From the NCBI RefSeq assembly GCF_009177065.1, contig NZ_WEZF01000001.1:310001-374000 (forward strand): a stretch of DNA of 64,000 bases, read 5' to 3'. A program made the position numbers and the translations under genes. The DNA is from Tautonia marina (GTDB lineage: Bacteria; Planctomycetota; Planctomycetia; Isosphaerales; Isosphaeraceae). Shown in pieces: positions 361-53,570 of this stretch. The notes under the pieces were generated by a model that had not been told where the DNA came from, ran no database searches, and saw only the letters and a list, made by a program, of their open reading frames with translations. Positions within the stretch are counted from its first letter, which is position 1. Each line of letters starts with the position of its first letter.

Positions 361-948
361 CTGTTGTTATGCTCGATTTGGCGTGATGAACGGGACAACC
401 AGACGTTTTCATGCACGCACATTTCTTCTCTGGCTACCGAGCCCAGCCTGCGCTGGGCGAAGCCAAGGGAAGCAAGGTCACGTTCGATGATGCCCCTGGG
501 TCTGGAAAGGTTAAGGGTTGATCCTCGCAAGAACCTTCGATGCAAACAAGGCATACTTTGAGGCTCCCTCCACGTCCCCCCACCCCGACCACAAGCGCCA
601 TCCCCAGCCGCGCCGATTGAAATTTCCCTTCGAAAAATGGGCTGGCCCGTGTGAGAAATTCGTATTATCTCTCCTTTGGATACGTTTCGATCACCCGCGA
701 TCCGCCTCGCTGAAGCTCGACTTCCCTCGGCTCCCCAGGCTCGGCATCGCCTGTCGGGGCAAGCCCCGCCCTGCAACACCTCCCGACGCTCGACGAGACC
801 TTCCAGTCTCAAATGATGCGTCGCCCGGTTGCCCTGGGTGTCCCCGGTGGCTCGCTGTGCAATGCAGGGACACCCAGGAACAACCCACCATTGTTGAGTG
901 GAAGGTCTACGACCCACCACCGGCGCCGCTCCGCTCGGCCCCGGCCCA
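361..948. other. Intergenic region between divergent genes, one repeat copy
   Basis: No credible gene is seen in this gap. Open frames here lack family features and start signals. The only structured element is a degenerate copy of the dispersed palindromic repeat at 799-905. Promoters for the SulP gene (leftward) and the secreted protein at 1103 (rightward) must lie here or just downstream. Confidence 0.6.
799..905. repeat. Dispersed palindromic repeat (REPIN-like), degenerate copy
   Basis: The outer arms are CCTTCCAGTCTCAAATGATG at the left and the complement of CCTTCCACTCAACAATG at the right. Inside, CTGGGTGTCCC (834-844) pairs with GGGACACCCAG (867-877). Both the arm sequences and the CTGGGTG core recur in the copies at 2101 and 28983. 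Here the central CCGG stem has decayed, so this looks like an old copy. Confidence 0.7.
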
Positions 949-2100: not shown

Positions 2101-2212
2101 CTTCCACCCTCAAATGATGCATTGCCCTTGCCTGGGTGCCCTTGCCTGGGTGGCCCCGGTTGGCGAGCCACCGGGGCCACCCAGGAAAAACCCACCATTA
2201 TAGAGTGGAAGG
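2101..2212. repeat. Dispersed palindromic repeat (REPIN-like), single-hairpin copy
   Basis: It begins CTTCCACCCTCAAATGATG and ends with the complement of CCTTCCACTCTATAATG. The core at 2146-2184 is a near-perfect palindrome: CTGGGTGGCCCCGGT, then TGGCGAGCC, then ACCGGGGCCACCCAG. It carries one central hairpin instead of two. A 13-base stretch (CTTGCCTGGGTG) is duplicated on the left side. The two ends of this copy define the two different end types found in the longer copies. Confidence 0.85.
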
Positions 2213-2825: not shown

Positions 2826-3389
2826 ATGTCCTTCCGAATGATTCTGGGTGCCGCCGCGGCGGCCGCCCTTGTTGCTTCGTCGGCCAACGCCCAGTCGAAG
2901 CAGATGCCAACCCCGCAGGCCCCCGGCAAGGCGGCCCCGGCCGCTCAGGCTCCGGTGGCTCCCTCCAAGGTCGCCCCCGCTCCGGCTCCTCAGGCTCCTG
3001 CCAAGGCTGCTCCGGCCCCGGCCCCTCAGGCTCCTGCCAAGGCTGCCCCGGCCCCGGCTCCTCAGGCTCCGGCCAAGGCTGCCCCGGCTCCGGCTCCTCA
3101 GGCTCCTGCGAAGGCTGCCCCGGCTCCTGCCCCGCAGGCTCCTGCGAAGGCTGCCCCGGCCCCGGCTCCTCAGGCTCCTGCCAAGGCTGCTCCGGCCCCG
3201 GCCCCTCAGGCTCCTGCCAAGGCTGCCCCGGCCCCGGCTCCTCAGGCTCCTGCCAAGGCTGCCCCGGCCCCGGCTCCTCAGGCTCCGGCCAAGGCTGCCC
3301 CGGCTCCGGCTCCTCAGGCTCCTGCCAAGGTTGCCCCGGCCCCGGCTCCTGCCCCCCAGGCTCCGGCCAAGGCGACCGGCCAGTACTGA
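2826..3389 (+). CDS. Secreted Ala/Pro/Lys repeat protein
   Basis: 187 residues. The signal peptide MSFRMILGAAAAAALVASSANAQ is followed by a mature part built almost only of a 12-residue unit, APAPAPQAPAKA, in about ten near-identical copies plus one variant unit with an extra AP. The DNA repeats with a 36-base period from about 2969 to 3372. Such Pro/Ala/Lys-rich repeats are seen in extended wall- or envelope-spanning spacers and in histone-H1-like tails. Because a signal peptide is present, an envelope role is more likely than DNA binding. The regular Lys every 12 residues gives a strong positive charge. Copy number may vary between strains. Confidence 0.75.
   Translation: MSFRMILGAAAAAALVASSANAQSKQMPTPQAPGKAAPAAQAPVAPSKVAPAPAPQAPAKAAPAPAPQAPAKAAPAPAPQAPAKAAPAPAPQAPAKAAPAPAPQAPAKAAPAPAPQAPAKAAPAPAPQAPAKAAPAPAPQAPAKAAPAPAPQAPAKAAPAPAPQAPAKVAPAPAPAPQAPAKATGQY
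2969..3372 (+). repeat. Coding 36-base tandem repeat
   Basis: About eleven units encode the APAPAPQAPAKA peptide. Units differ mainly at third codon positions (CCG/CCT, GCC/GCG/GCT), so they are older than the last expansion, although some runs of units are identical. Confidence 0.85.
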
Positions 3390-3608
3390 GTTCCTCGCCG
3401 GAACATCCCGGCGACCATCCGCTCCATCGTCTCGATGCGCCCAGTTCCGGGAGATTCGTTCTCCGGGGCCTGGGCGTTTCTCGTTGCGCCGCGTCCATCG
3501 GGTGACGGGTCGAGTCGATCGTCTGTATCATGGCGAGCCGTCGGGCCGATCAACCCGCGCGTGCCGTCGAAATCACCAGATGGTCATCAATGAATGAGGG
3601 AGCAACGG

Positions 3609-9445: not shown

Positions 9446-10560
9446 GGCATTCGTCTCATCCCTCACACCCGGACCCTCCTCTCCCCCAGACTCCGCCGGG
9501 CCGGTCCCCCGCGTGACGACCTTTTCTTCCAAAAATGTGTCAGATCAATCTCCATCCCGCTTGTGCAACCATCCGCCTCGGTGGCACATTCCCCGCCTCG
9601 CCTGGCAGAGACGGTCTGGGGGGACCCCTGACGCGGCTCGAGCGTCGCGAGCGTTCATGCCCCCGATTGAGTGACTGGACCTCGCCCAAATCCCGATCCT
9701 ATTGGATGAGGCGACTTACGCTCTGTCCGCGTCCCCAAGCCCTCCAGGATCAGGAACGCAGGAATCGGACTGCGCCGGGCCCCTCCATCCTCCACCCGCG
9801 TGATCGGATTTCCGTCCTCGACCTGCCGCAGACCGATCTCAATGGCCCACGACCATTCACCCTTGAAATTCCCGAAACGAATTGCCTGACGATGACGCAA
9901 CTTCATCCACAGAAAGCACGAACAGGCAATCCGCCTCGGCACACCCGGGCGCACCGGGCCGCGCACTCCCGGCGCACCGGCTCGTCCGACAGGCCATTCT
10001 CGATCATCCGGGGTGGGCTGACGTCAGCGGCGGCCTCGGTACGATCGCTGATCCCTGGAAATCCCGAAACGAACGCACTCTTGATGACGCAACTCCTTGT
10101 TTCGCAAGCACAAACGTGCGATTTCTTCCGGCGCACCGGGGCGCACCAAGCTGCCCACTCGCGGCGCACCGAGTGCGCGGACGAGCCCCGGCGGTTGGAT
10201 CATCCACGGCGGCCCGGCCCGCGTCGAGGGGCCTGGTTCCACTCGATGCCGATTTCCCGAAACGAATCGGCCCGAAATGACGTAACCTTCTCTGGAGAAG
10301 GCACAAATCGCTTTCTCTCGCTGGCGTACCGGGGCGCACCGGTCCGCGCATCCGAGGCGCACCGGGCCGCACGAGACGCCCTCGCTCGCGAGACTCGGGC
10401 CCGCCCGGCCGACTCCGGAGGCAACGAGTTCGCCCGTCGCCGATCCCCGCGCCCCGGGCCGATCCTCCCGGATTCTGGTTGTCCCCGACGTCTCATCCGA
10501 TATGATGAGATGACTGACCAGAGACTCGAACCCGCACCCCTCCCGACGCCACGAACGCCC
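9446..10560. other. 1.1-kb intergenic region dominated by a long-period tandem repeat
   Basis: This lies between the divergent sigma and zinc-ribbon genes. Long open frames exist on both strands, but they change frame between repeat units and lack family features, so I read the region as non-coding. It probably holds the promoters of the sigma-kinase-propeller operon and of the gene at 10561. Confidence 0.6.
9864..10440. repeat. Three diverged ~192-base tandem units with GCGCACC triplets
   Basis: CCCGAAACGAA starts units at 9871, 10063 and 10256, i.e. periods of 192 and 193. Each unit continues with a GATGACGYAAC motif, a short GCACRAA motif and a 43-base block (9938-9980, 10130-10172, 10323-10365). 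That block contains GGCGYACCGGGGCGCACC and a third GGCGCACC. Between these blocks the units differ strongly. A possible, worse-preserved unit begins near 9692. The conserved parts recur at a fixed phase, which points to selected binding sites or a structured element rather than a recent duplication. Confidence 0.75.
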
Positions 10561-28897: not shown

Positions 28898-28982
28898 TCC
28901 TCGCATCGCATTAGAAGCAATTGCTATTCGCACGCTTTCAGGGCGATGCGACGTCCTGGAAGTGTCTTTGTTTGGAGTAGAT

Positions 28983-29169
28983 CTTCCATCCTCAAATGAT
29001 GCGTCACCGCGTAGTCCTGGGTGGCCCCGGTTGCTCGTCAACCGGGGTCGCGGAGCGACGAGCGGTCAGGGGGTGGCCTCCCGTCGCCTCTCGCGGTTGC
29101 GTCGCCCCGGTTGGCAAGCAACCGGGGCCACCCAAAGCAATGGGACAACGCATCTCTTGAGGGTGGAAG
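28983..29169. repeat. Dispersed palindromic repeat (REPIN-like), full two-hairpin copy
   Basis: The longest non-coding copy (187 bases). The outer arms are CTTCCATCCTCAAATGATG and the complement of CTTCCACCCTCAAGAGATG. Hairpin 1 is CCCCGGTTG-CTCGT-CAACCGGGG (29025-29047). Hairpin 2 is CCCCGGTTG with CAACCGGGG (29105-29127). GGGTGG flanks each hairpin on its outer side. It lies between katG and mlaD and is oriented opposite to the copies at 44486 and 53456. Confidence 0.9.
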
Positions 29170-29218
29170 CGGTCCTACGCGAGAACGATTGGCGGTGGCG
29201 TTTGAGGCCCAGTTTGCC

Positions 29219-36919: not shown

Positions 36920-37959
36920 TGTGCGATCCTCTGAACATGCCTGGTACCGCTTCCAATGAAATAGGGTGGGTTTCTCCCGGGTGGCCCCGGTTGCTCGTCA
37001 ACCGGGGTCGCGGAGCGACGAGCGGTTTCGGTGCGGCCCCCCGTCCCCTCGTGCGGCTGCGCCGCCCCGGTTGGCGAGCCACCGGGGCCACCCACAACGC
37101 ATCATTCGAGGGTGGAAGCTGGACTGGCACGATTGCCGCACTGATCCTGGGCCTGTCCTTTCCAGCCGAGTGCCAACCTGGCGACGACTTTCCCGAGGAC
37201 CTGCGCCGGTGGATCGCCACCGAGCCTCCCCAACTCGAATCCGAGCGATGGTGGGCGGCTCAAGAGAACTTCGAGTATGAATGGGTCGTCTCACTGCGCG
37301 ACGGTGTGCCTCGGGTCGATCGGCGCGACGTGAGGAGCGAGGAGATGGAGCCGCTCCCCTTCGTCATCGAACCGGGCTCCTCTCGTGATGGGCTCGCGGG
37401 TCGGAGGTATGCGATCCGGGTGATCGACGGCTGGCTGGTCGGTTTCAACGGCGGGGAATTCGGCGCGGGGCTCTGGTGGTTCTCGCCCGACGGGAGCCAG
37501 CGCGTGAAGCTCGGGGAAGCCTGGATCAACGGCTTCCTCCGGACCGAAACCGGCATCTGGGCCATCGAGGGCCTGGCCCACGGAGCCGATGACTCGGGTC
37601 AGCTTCTCCGGATGGTGCAAGCCCCCGGCGGCCGTTGGCAGGCCGAACGATTCCTTGACCTGGGGCAAACCCCCGCAGTCTTCGCAGAGGACGCCGACGG
37701 CGGTTTCGTCGTCGCGACACGCGAGCGGCTGATCCGGGTCGATCCCGCCGCCAAGACCATCACAACCTTGATCGAAGAGGTTTTCTGGCAAGGGCTTGAT
37801 CCCAATTCCATGGTCGTCACCCCAGCCGGGACGATCCTCATCGGGATGCGGCATGGCGTGGCCAGAATCGAGCCGGGGAACGACGGTCATTCCCGGGTCC
37901 ATTGGCTCTTGCCGAATCAATCATTCGTGGACTTGAAGCCAGTGGAAGGGTTCAAGTAA
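36919..37959 (+). CDS. Hypothetical secreted propeller-like protein with repeat-derived 5' end
   Basis: The apparent ATG at 36919 overlaps the ATPase stop (TGATG). Codons up to about 37119 are the dispersed palindromic repeat read as protein (GWPRLLVNRGRGATSG...). The native protein seems to begin near GTIAALILGLSFPAECQ (about 37125), a signal-peptide core that has lost its Met. The rest (about 275 residues) has beta-propeller-like stretches: GLWWFSPDGSQRVKLG, FLRTETGIWAIEGLA, VFAEDADGGFVVATRERLIR and MVVTPAGTILIGMRHGVAR. Either translation is coupled to the ATPase and passes through the repeat, or a non-ATG start near 37110-37140 is used, or the gene is silent. The family is not recognised. 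Confidence 0.6.
   Translation: MCDPLNMPGTASNEIGWVSPGWPRLLVNRGRGATSGFGAAPRPLVRLRRPGWRATGATHNASFEGGSWTGTIAALILGLSFPAECQPGDDFPEDLRRWIATEPPQLESERWWAAQENFEYEWVVSLRDGVPRVDRRDVRSEEMEPLPFVIEPGSSRDGLAGRRYAIRVIDGWLVGFNGGEFGAGLWWFSPDGSQRVKLGEAWINGFLRTETGIWAIEGLAHGADDSGQLLRMVQAPGGRWQAERFLDLGQTPAVFAEDADGGFVVATRERLIRVDPAAKTITTLIEEVFWQGLDPNSMVVTPAGTILIGMRHGVARIEPGNDGHSRVHWLLPNQSFVDLKPVEGFK
36950..37119. repeat. Dispersed palindromic repeat (REPIN-like) inside the ABC exporter operon
   Basis: The left end CTTCCAATGAAATAGGGTGG matches the reverse of the right end of the copy at 2101. The right end is the complement of CTTCCACCCTCGAATGATG. Hairpins are at 36985-37007 (CCCCGGTTG...CAACCGGGG) and 37066-37088 (CCCCGGTTGGCGAGCCACCG). 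It has the same orientation as the copy at 28983. It falls between the ATPase stop and the body of the next gene. Confidence 0.88.
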
Positions 37960-44263: not shown

Positions 44264-45183
44264 CGGCTCCTCCTTCACCTAGTGACTCCCGAGCGGTGAT
44301 CCGAACCGCACGATTTCAAAACGCCTCTCCCCAGATGCTTCGGCACGCGACCGAGTCGGGGTCAAGCCTCCCGAACCGGCTGCGAGGACGGCCGTCCGGG
44401 TCGTGCTGAATGTGCCTGTTCCTCGGGTGGCCCGACCGGGCAGTCCCGCGTTCACCCATCCGATAATGCGTTGCCCCTTTGCCTTGGGTGGCCCCGGTTG
44501 CTCGCCAACCGGGGCGGCGCAGCCGCACGAGGGGACGGGGGGCCGCACCGAGACCGCTCGTCGCTCCGCGACCCCGGTTGACGAGCAACCGGGGCCACCC
44601 AGAAAAAATTCTCTCGCGTTGAGAAAGATTGACCGTAAGCCGTTTTCAATTCAGGACTTCTGTTGATATTAAGAAAGGCTCCGCCCCCCCGGCGATCCCT
44701 GCAACCGGAAAATGCTTGAACAACCGGAACGCAATCGCTGTTCCGGGGGCCGTTTTGCACAATCGCCGAACGATCGAAACCAATGGCCGTTGCGGTTCGA
44801 AGGCCAAGGCTCGCTTGCGCTTGAGACGTACCATTCCCCGAGACATCGGCTCGGAAGTCGGTGCCCAAAACGTTCGCACCCAGAGCGTTCCGATTTGCAA
44901 AAAGTTCCAACACGATCGCGGAACGACGCACACAAACGACCCGGCCTGGCAGTTTGGTTTGGTCGTGCCGAGTGGATCGATTGTGGGTGGGTGATTCCTG
45001 CCATTCTGAACCGGTTCGAGATCAAGCCCCGAGGTGGTCCCCTCCGATATGAGGGGGGATGGTTGACCGGGCACCGTTGATCGGCCCGCGTTCCGGATCG
45101 CGATCGATCCGATTCAAAGGGTCGTGAGCCGATCGCTCCATGCCGGTCCGCCGGCCCAGCCCAGGATCAGGAGAGTGGCGGCG
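44264..45183. other. 0.9-kb intergenic region with one palindromic repeat
   Basis: Divergent genes flank this gap. The dispersed repeat core is at 44486-44600. The remaining ~580 bases up to 45183 have frames on both strands but no family features, no signal peptides and no good ribosome sites. I see no gene. Confidence 0.55.
44486..44600. repeat. Dispersed palindromic repeat (REPIN-like), two-hairpin core
   Basis: 115 bases. GGGTGGCCCCGGTTG-CTCG-CCAACCGGGG is followed by CGGCGCAGCCGCACGAGG, a 24-base centre, CTCGTCGCTCCGCGACC and the mirror hairpin CCGGTTGACGAGCAACCGG with GGCCACCC. A weak left arm (CACCCATCCGATAATGCG) remains at 44453-44470. It has the same orientation as the copy at 53456 and the RAYT copy at 48200. 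Confidence 0.9.
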
Positions 45184-48055: not shown

Positions 48056-48099
48056 GATTCCCTCTCGTCCCCCTTGCGTCCGAGCCCTCTCAACCCTCA

Positions 48100-48127
48100 A
48101 CCCTCGCCCCCGTTCACGGGGGAGAGG
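48100..48127. terminator. Hairpin after the DPM1-like gene
   Basis: CCCTCGCCCCCG and CGGGGGAGAGGG form a 12-base stem with one mismatch and a TTCA loop, 45 bases after the stop. No T-run. It resembles the hairpin at 19391. Confidence 0.45.
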
Positions 48128-48199
48128 GTGGCCGCAGGCAATAGTGTTCGGCACGGGATTTTCCGCGGGACGTGAGTTGCTATGATGGAGGTTCTCCGC

Positions 48200-48842
48200 G
48201 GGTGGCCCGGACAACTCGTTGTCCGGGCGGCGAAGCCGCAAGAGGCGTCAGTCGAGCCAGCCGACCGGCACGCCGACGCTATGCCCTTGCTTATAGTACC
48301 GGGCCGAACTCCAGGGCCAATCGCACGGGCGAGCGACCAGGCCGGCACGCACCGGGTTCTGGTGCATGTAGGCGAGCTTCTCCTCGAACTTGTGCTCTGA
48401 GTAGAGGTTGAAGCCGTAGTAACGGGGTTGCCAGATCGGCTCCGACAGGTCAAAAGCCTGGGCGTACGCAGTCATCCCGATGCGCAGGAAGCGCTTGATC
48501 TGCACGGAACTACGTTGCTTCCACTGCTTCATGAAGTGGGATAGCTGGTCGACATCCGGGAACCAGAGGATCGCATGCACGTGGTCGGGCATGACGACAA
48601 AGCCGACACAACGGCCGTGCTGCAATGACAGTTGCGAGGCGAGGACCCCGAGGACGATCCGCTTGGGCCGGTCTTGGTCGAGAAACCGACGGCGTCGATA
48701 GCACGAGAAGGTCACGAAGTGGGCGTGCCTGTCTCGGTCGTAGATACGCCTTGTGGCCATGCGATGAGCCTACGATTGGCCCGCCCGGACCTCAAGCCTC
48801 TCGTCGCTGCGCGACCCGGACAACACGTTGTCCGGGCCACCC
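48200..48842. mobile_element. RAYT transposase gene enclosed by the two halves of a palindromic repeat
   Basis: The left end is GGGTGGCCCGGACAAC-TC-GTTGTCCGGG followed by CGGCGAAGCCGCAAGAGG (48200-48245). The right end is CTCGTCGCTGCGCGACCCGG, then a CGGACAACACGTTGTCCG hairpin and GGCCACCC (48798-48842). The skeleton is that of the 115-base copies, but the central 24 bases are replaced by the transposase gene plus about 35 bases, and the stems read GGACAAC instead of GGTTG. GTGG before each hairpin fits the GTRG tetranucleotide of REP elements. Confidence 0.85.
48248..48760 (-). CDS. REP-associated tyrosine transposase (RAYT, Y1/IS200-like)
   Basis: 170 residues, the usual RAYT length. The HUH motif is H60-V-H62 in MPDHVHAI, and the catalytic Tyr is Y131 in KLAYMHQNPVRAGL. 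The diagnostic WQPRYYGFNL and the WPWSSARYY end are present. RAYTs cut and join single-stranded DNA at REP hairpins. The stop codon lies 2 bases from the left half-repeat. Catalytic residues are intact, so it may be active. RAYTs are usually single-copy domesticated transposases that spread REP/REPIN sequences without moving themselves. Confidence 0.93.
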   Translation of the reverse strand: MATRRIYDRDRHAHFVTFSCYRRRRFLDQDRPKRIVLGVLASQLSLQHGRCVGFVVMPDHVHAILWFPDVDQLSHFMKQWKQRSSVQIKRFLRIGMTAYAQAFDLSEPIWQPRYYGFNLYSEHKFEEKLAYMHQNPVRAGLVARPCDWPWSSARYYKQGHSVGVPVGWLD

Positions 48843-48981
48843 AATGGATGAAGACCATTGACGGAAGCCCTTGCCAGTTGTGGGATACCCCAACTGGCGT
48901 TTCGATCACCTCGTCGGCGCGCAGGGATAACATCTCCAGCGAGGCTCGGACCGGGGCCGGGGCGGTTGCCTTCCGGCAGGC

Positions 48982-53330: not shown

Positions 53331-53455
53331 GGGTGCGGGTCCTGTTCGGAGGGAGAGATCAGGCGGGAAAGCGGAGGATTGACGAGAATTCTGAGGTGAG
53401 ACTCAGACACTTATGGAGATCCCAAACCAATGTCCGAGTTTCGAGAGCGGCCCCT

Positions 53456-53570
53456 GGGTGGCCCCGGTTGCTCGCCAACCGGGGCGGCGCAGCCGCAAGA
53501 GGCTGCGGGAGGCCACACCGCGACCGCTCGTCGCTCCGCGACCCCGGTTGGCGAGCAACCGGGGCCACCC
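53456..53570. repeat. Dispersed palindromic repeat (REPIN-like), two-hairpin core
   Basis: 115 bases, the same length and orientation as the copy at 44486. Hairpins are CCCCGGTTG-CTCG-CCAACCGGGG and CCCCGGTTGGCGAGCAACCG; the shoulders are CGGCGCAGCCGCAAGAGG and CGCTCGTCGCTCCGCGACC. The central 24 bases differ (CTGCGGGAGGCCACACCGCG). It lies between two genes of a probable operon. Outer arms are not recognisable. Confidence 0.9.

Follow-up and report, generated by a model that had tools for sequence, protein, structure and literature searches.

A RAYT gene enclosed by inverted REPs in Tautonia marina and its probable copying as a whole unit among planctomycetes

A RAYT gene with inverted REPs on both sides is reportedly termed a REPtron, a name said to date from Ton-Hoang in 2012. 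In IS608, an element of the IS200/IS605 type, both hairpins lie on one strand. RAYTs were described by Nunvar et al. (2010, PMC2817692) as Y1 HUH genes between inverted REPs that have a 5' GT[AG]G foot and a GC-rich palindrome, with a single REP type for each RAYT; the placement of a RAYT between two inverted REPs is thus already part of the published description and is not new. The protein, TnpAREP, binds single-stranded REPs that carry a GT[AG]G foot, close to which it cleaves and rejoins DNA, and RAYT genes are reported to occur in single copy, without evidence that they move (PMC8266576). RAYTs seem unable to mobilise themselves (PMC3116915). In three Pseudomonas strains a second RAYT has been found at a new location, where the REPs are different (Nunvar 2013, PMC3686654). 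Inverted REP doublets that act as one element and whose occurrence follows that of a cognate RAYT are known as REPINs (Bertels and Rainey 2011, PMC3116915), and a Y1 transposase gene flanked by inverted repeats also defines the TIRtron, or TIRYT (Di Nocera 2013, PMC3733652).

We analysed a 64,000-nt stretch of the Tautonia marina genome (the window), which lies on contig C1 of a 7.07-Mb draft assembly in 80 contigs (G000). Comparisons drew on a sample of 294 genomes at the phylum level and 59 relatives (draft assemblies). The features of interest are collected in Table 1. The protein encoded by the RAYT gene at this locus scored 112.6 bits (E 1.4e-32; cut-off 80) against the NCBIfam model REP_Tyr_transpos (NF047646) and was assigned to Y1_Tnp by Pfam. 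Among solved structures, that of E. coli TnpAREP (PDB 4er8) is nearest to it, and this match together with the NF047646 score places it in the RAYT family. Both the HVH motif and the tyrosine lined up with their counterparts in an alignment with 4er8, so that the HUH motif and catalytic Tyr, which the first-pass annotation of this DNA had called intact, are in place.

Both flanking REPs have the same four parts, namely GGGTGG, a main palindrome of 22 nt (CCCGGACAAC NN GTTGTCCGGG), a second, small palindrome, and either CAAGAGGC or GAGAGGC; the left half (48200-48246) reads GGGTGG-CCCGGACAACTCGTTGTCCGGG-CGGCGAAGCCG-CAAGAGGC. The second palindrome differs by side, being GGCGAAGCC in the left (A) half and TCGCTGCGCGA in the right (B) half. 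The halves are 81% complementary across 52 nt, with an inverted-repeat score of 54 vs. a maximum of 29 among 200 shuffles, and both REPs fold well as single-stranded DNA (z of -3.3 for the left and -2.8 for the right). The RAYT is therefore enclosed by its own inverted repeat pair, GTGG included, as the first-pass annotation had claimed, although the stop codon is separated from the left REP by one base rather than the 2 bases given there. The flanking REP type recurs elsewhere in the genome, if sparsely, in a REPIN beside the second copy of the unit on contig C22 and in a longer-loop REPIN on contig C5.

Table 1. Coordinates of the RAYT unit and of the short repeat elements in the window
Feature	Position	Strand	Remarks
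RAYT / TnpAREP gene	48248-48760	minus (complement)	170 aa; HVH 60-62, Tyr 131
Left REP (A half)	48200-48246	+	GGGTGG, main stem 48206-48227, small stem ~48227-48239, CAAGAGGC; just past the RAYT stop codon
Right REP (B half)	48796-48842	-	main stem 48815-48836, small stem TCGCTGCGCGA 48804-48814; 35 nt 5' of the start codon of the RAYT
5' extension of unit	48843-48899	-	~57 nt beyond the right REP; from comparison of three non-syntenic loci
REPIN, GGTTG type	29019-29134	-	reduced to one palindrome in the congener G003
REPIN, GGTTG type	36979-37094	-	same-site copy in G003
REPIN, GGTTG type	44486-44602	+	
REPIN, GGTTG type	53454-53570	+	G003 keeps only a short remnant
Solo GGTTG palindrome (collapsed REPIN)	2147-2183	.	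within the outer palindromic repeat

The unit bears comparison with several known systems. It shares with the RAYTs of Nunvar et al. (PMC2817692) the Y1 HUH gene, the inverted footed REPs and the GC-rich palindrome, but it is duplicated whole, and each REP carries an extra small hairpin that differs between the halves. An HUH Y1 transposase, subterminal hairpins and whole-unit movement recall IS200/IS605, yet the hairpin modules lie in inverted orientation instead of sharing a strand, each strand carrying one REP and one inverse REP, and the protein scored only 28 bits against the IS200-family TnpA model NF033573 (cut-off 55). Unlike those of the TIRtron (PMC3733652), the repeats flanking the gene are GTGG-tagged palindromes that also occur in the genome as REPINs. 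Three other repeats were seen in the window: a hairpin repeat, CCCTCGCCCCCGTTCACGGGGGAGAGGGTGGCCG, at 48098-48140, present at dozens of sites in G000 and the congeners G002 and G003; a ~192-bp tandem repeat in three copies at 9869-10364, with 42-54 nt blocks at 69-83% identity; and a 36-nt tandem repeat inside an Ala/Pro-rich stretch at 2871-3421.

A search for further RAYT-carrying copies, which the first-pass annotation had suggested, revealed duplication of the unit. G000 has three RAYTs: that of the window (C1), the copy on C22 and a relative on C19 with 58% amino acid identity. The C1 and C22 units are 92% identical over 687 nt (the REP-to-REP unit at the window being ~643 bp), and a copy in the congener G001, which is frameshifted and broken, is 89% identical; the gene neighbourhoods of the three units are unrelated to one another. 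On the 3' side of the gene, homology among the three ends at the outer REP edge, CCACCC. On the 5' side it runs ~57-70 nt past the REP, into sequence absent elsewhere in the genus that could be a promoter, and the REP edge is thus not the sole boundary of these units, whose main stem is of the GGACAAC type. This 5' extension was found only with the window RAYT subtype, at the three non-syntenic loci, and has hairpin-forming potential in two of the three copies; it is possibly promoter or regulatory DNA. The comparison with relatives that had also been proposed gave a mixed outcome: at the window locus, three congeners retain synteny and have no RAYT, but the interval contains different DNA, and a clean empty site was not found for any RAYT unit.

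The C1 and C22 genes differ by a dN of 0.048 and a dS of 0.264 (dN/dS ~0.18; NG86, short genes), and a dS of 0.26 means that their separation was not a recent event; the pair could reflect two acquisitions. Between G000 and G001, RAYT dS was 0.23-0.41, compared to 0.60 and 0.81 for two neighbouring genes of the window locus (NG86, short genes), which suggests horizontal spread. Since G000 is a draft in 80 contigs, and since the GGTTG-type REP, abundant elsewhere in it, is absent from C22, the membership of C22 in this genome rests on binning and on its tetranucleotide fit to G000 of 0.962-0.979, a value to be read against the 0.961 between the two halves of the window and one that a congener would match equally. 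Our search for plasmid carriage of the RAYT returned only distant homologues of ≤35% identity.

An independent pair was present in G112, an unrelated planctomycete from another family of the phylum (8 contigs), in which two units lie on contigs of 3.26 and 0.995 Mb. Their identity is 95.9% along a stretch of exactly 662 bp whose limits are the two REP edges (CGCGGGTGG to CCACCCGCG; unit edges CGCG-GGTGG to CCACC-CGCG), and the next 100 nt outside the units show 26% and 28% ungapped identity. The two regions have two other short repeats in common, which do not line up with the unit, so the pair is not accounted for by segmental duplication. At a dN of 0.018 and a dS of 0.061, dN/dS was ~0.30 (NG86, short genes), and the ratios in G000 and G112 thus indicate that the copies were under purifying selection. 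Homology likewise runs from REP to REP in an older pair, 69% identical, in G048. In the protein tree the two members of each of the three within-genome pairs grouped with each other; the G112 and G048 forks had support of 100/99 or 100/100 and the clade of C1, C22 and G001 had 100/98, whereas the separation of C1 and C22 from G001 was weakly supported (90/42). The behaviour reported in the literature for the REPtron, single copy and immobile as a unit, which is not part of its defining anatomy, is contradicted by the 92% pair in G000 and the independent 96% pair in G112. As in the Pseudomonas strains (PMC3686654), two related RAYTs occur in one genome, one of them at a new place, but the window and C22 copies share their REPs and the entire unit; to the published cases these pairs add exact limits of the copied unit.

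We then asked how the REP types are distributed, using pattern searches for the hairpins. The main GGACAAC-type hairpin of the window unit occurs five times in G000 with ≤1 mismatch: two lie around the window RAYT, one lies at the C22 RAYT and two form a single REPIN adjoining the C22 unit. The second REP of the C22 RAYT has a one-base insertion and so escaped the search, and the C5 REPIN mentioned above is of the same type with a longer loop. The GGTTG type (CCCCGGTTG..CAACCGGGG) accounts for 71 exact hairpins in G000 and also surrounds the C19 RAYT; G003, which lacks any RAYT, has 16 such hairpins, and G001 and G002 have none. Short-loop GGACAAC hairpins number five in G000, two in G001 (both surrounding its broken RAYT), three in G002 (all imperfect) and none in G003. 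REP counts thus follow the presence of RAYTs across the genus. From proximity and stem identity we infer, as the simplest reading, that the C19 RAYT would move the abundant GGTTG REPINs in trans, while the window/C22 RAYT would serve the rare GGACAAC type. A locus in G002 (L145, G002:C1:3817125) has an A half followed by sequence like the RAYT 3' end and is possibly the remnant of a RAYT unit.

The four short copies in the window are 116 bp long, with a centre of ~22-24 nt and a main stem of CCCCGGTTG..CAACCGGGG, unlike that of the window RAYT unit. With two inverted REPs, a short conserved spacer and many copies, they are REPINs, and the core measures 110-113 bp in nearly all of the 38 records listed. 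Like the REPINs of Bertels and Rainey (PMC3116915), they are inverted doublets that act as one element and follow a cognate RAYT; they differ in having asymmetric A and B halves and in that many sit at the tip of a larger palindrome. They have the same A/B order and spacing as the RAYT units, including the asymmetry of GGCGAAGCC vs. TCGCTGCGCGA, and therefore the same ends. In describing them as the window element with its gene removed, the first-pass annotation was right about the layout but not about the stem, which is that found around the C19 RAYT. At the four corresponding sites in G003, one REPIN is present, one is collapsed to a solo palindrome, one is a deletion remnant and one interval is too diverged; no clean pre-insertion site was found across the four. 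Single perfect palindromes derived from REPINs were seen in this comparison (window 29019-29134 vs. G003:C7:22419-22441) and at window 2147-2183, and such a collapse is expected because the stems form direct repeats between which deletion can occur.

Most GGTTG REPINs lie, in both orientations, at the apex of another and larger palindromic repeat (TTCCACCCTCAAATGATGCGTCGCCCCTTTGCCCTGG / CCAGGAAAAACCCACCATTTTTGAGTGGAAG), which is found only in G000 and G003. Its loci include window 28979-29174, 36950-37130, 796-950 and 2096-2211, along with many others (L153-L179). At window 800-910 a different short hairpin (GGGTGTCCCCGG...GGGACACCC) takes the place of the REPIN. A joined empty copy of the outer palindrome, sought as proof of targeting, was not found, and the repeat is possibly a nested target or a composite.

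GC-rich hairpins are common 3' of genes in G000, and the hairpins flanking the RAYT might accordingly be transcription terminators or other chance palindromes with no relation to the gene. We compared homologous loci, matching 300 nt upstream in inverted orientation against 300 nt downstream, with 200 shuffles (dinucleotide blocks) per locus. Inverted flanks exceeded all 200 shuffles at 41 of 50 loci (38 of 47 distinct ones), including loci from planctomycetes and several deltaproteobacterial MAGs. The median score was 56.5 within a locus vs. 21 between loci, so the flanks match each other even though the stem varies by genome. With a match far above shuffles at the window as well, and stems that vary jointly on either side of the gene, an origin as terminators or chance palindromes is scarcely credible. 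Unrelated half-repeats around orthologous RAYTs, the observation that the first-pass annotation had said would overturn its view, were thus not the pattern at these loci. Its suggestion that the RAYT was captured by insertion into a REPIN is in keeping with the position of the gene, which lies between A and B halves just as a REPIN centre does. Enclosure of most homologues, in planctomycetes and some deltaproteobacterial lineages, with stems specific to each locus indicates instead that the RAYT-REP association is old, without a capture event here, and makes capture extremely unlikely. The shared ends and A/B asymmetry would equally fit its other proposal, that the short elements (given as 115 bases) are internal-deletion derivatives of the window RAYT-carrying element, and a general, ancestral version of this has been put forward (PMC3116915). 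The window REPINs, however, carry a different stem, and we found no homology to the RAYT interior in REPIN centres (P of 0.22 and 0.06 vs. shuffles); with no residual trace of the gene there, derivation by internal deletion lacks support. The C22 REPIN, moreover, has a centre that recurs in a REPIN of G002 and is therefore an old, separate sequence. Internal deletion may account for the remote ancestry of REPINs, as Bertels and Rainey proposed (PMC3116915), but for the present copies it is not supported, and we consider derivation from the window element very unlikely.

We favour the reading that the window unit is a REPtron and that units of this planctomycete RAYT clade are probably still copied whole, from REP to REP, to new sites. 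What the alignments display directly is a gene enclosed by REPs whose stems match, several copies of the entire unit in unrelated surroundings, and homology that ends at REP edges, and the whole-unit copies suggest that RAYT units move or recently did. Under the published view of RAYTs as resembling single-copy housekeeping genes (PMC8266576; PMC3116915), the unit would instead be static and domesticated, its extra copies due either to horizontal transfer with recombination, whether homologous or illegitimate, or to independent acquisition, with no transposition of the unit. The distance between C1 and C22, nearly equal to their distance from the G001 copy, and the patchy presence of the RAYT within the family are in keeping with such a history. 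Homology in the G112 pair, however, is confined to the unit and exact at both REP edges between unrelated flanks, which would be hard to achieve through recombination in the flanks, and unit copying is repeated in three genomes. We regard a static unit as unlikely, though it retains some weight.

If the unit is copied whole, the RAYT itself would be its mover. The protein would bind the GTGG and hairpin on a single strand (the lagging-strand template), cut the REPs at their outer foot and join the piece elsewhere. Because the outer edge of homology of copied units coincides with this foot, the REP feet are the most plausible termini of the moved piece; neither a target-site duplication nor a single-strand intermediate was seen. 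Some Planctomycetota RAYT-REP units might then be autonomous transposons with ends at the outer feet of the inverted REPs, a proposal for which we judge the chances to be evenly balanced.

The near-identical, precisely bounded RAYT units of planctomycetes offer natural substrates for studying unit transposition and cut sites and for comparison with the movement of REPINs in trans. If they are indeed transposons, they would represent a surviving example of the element proposed as the source of REPINs, and would argue against RAYTs being fully domesticated and immobile. As REPs and REPINs outnumber all other short repeats in many bacterial genomes, this would bear on how these repeats arose and spread.
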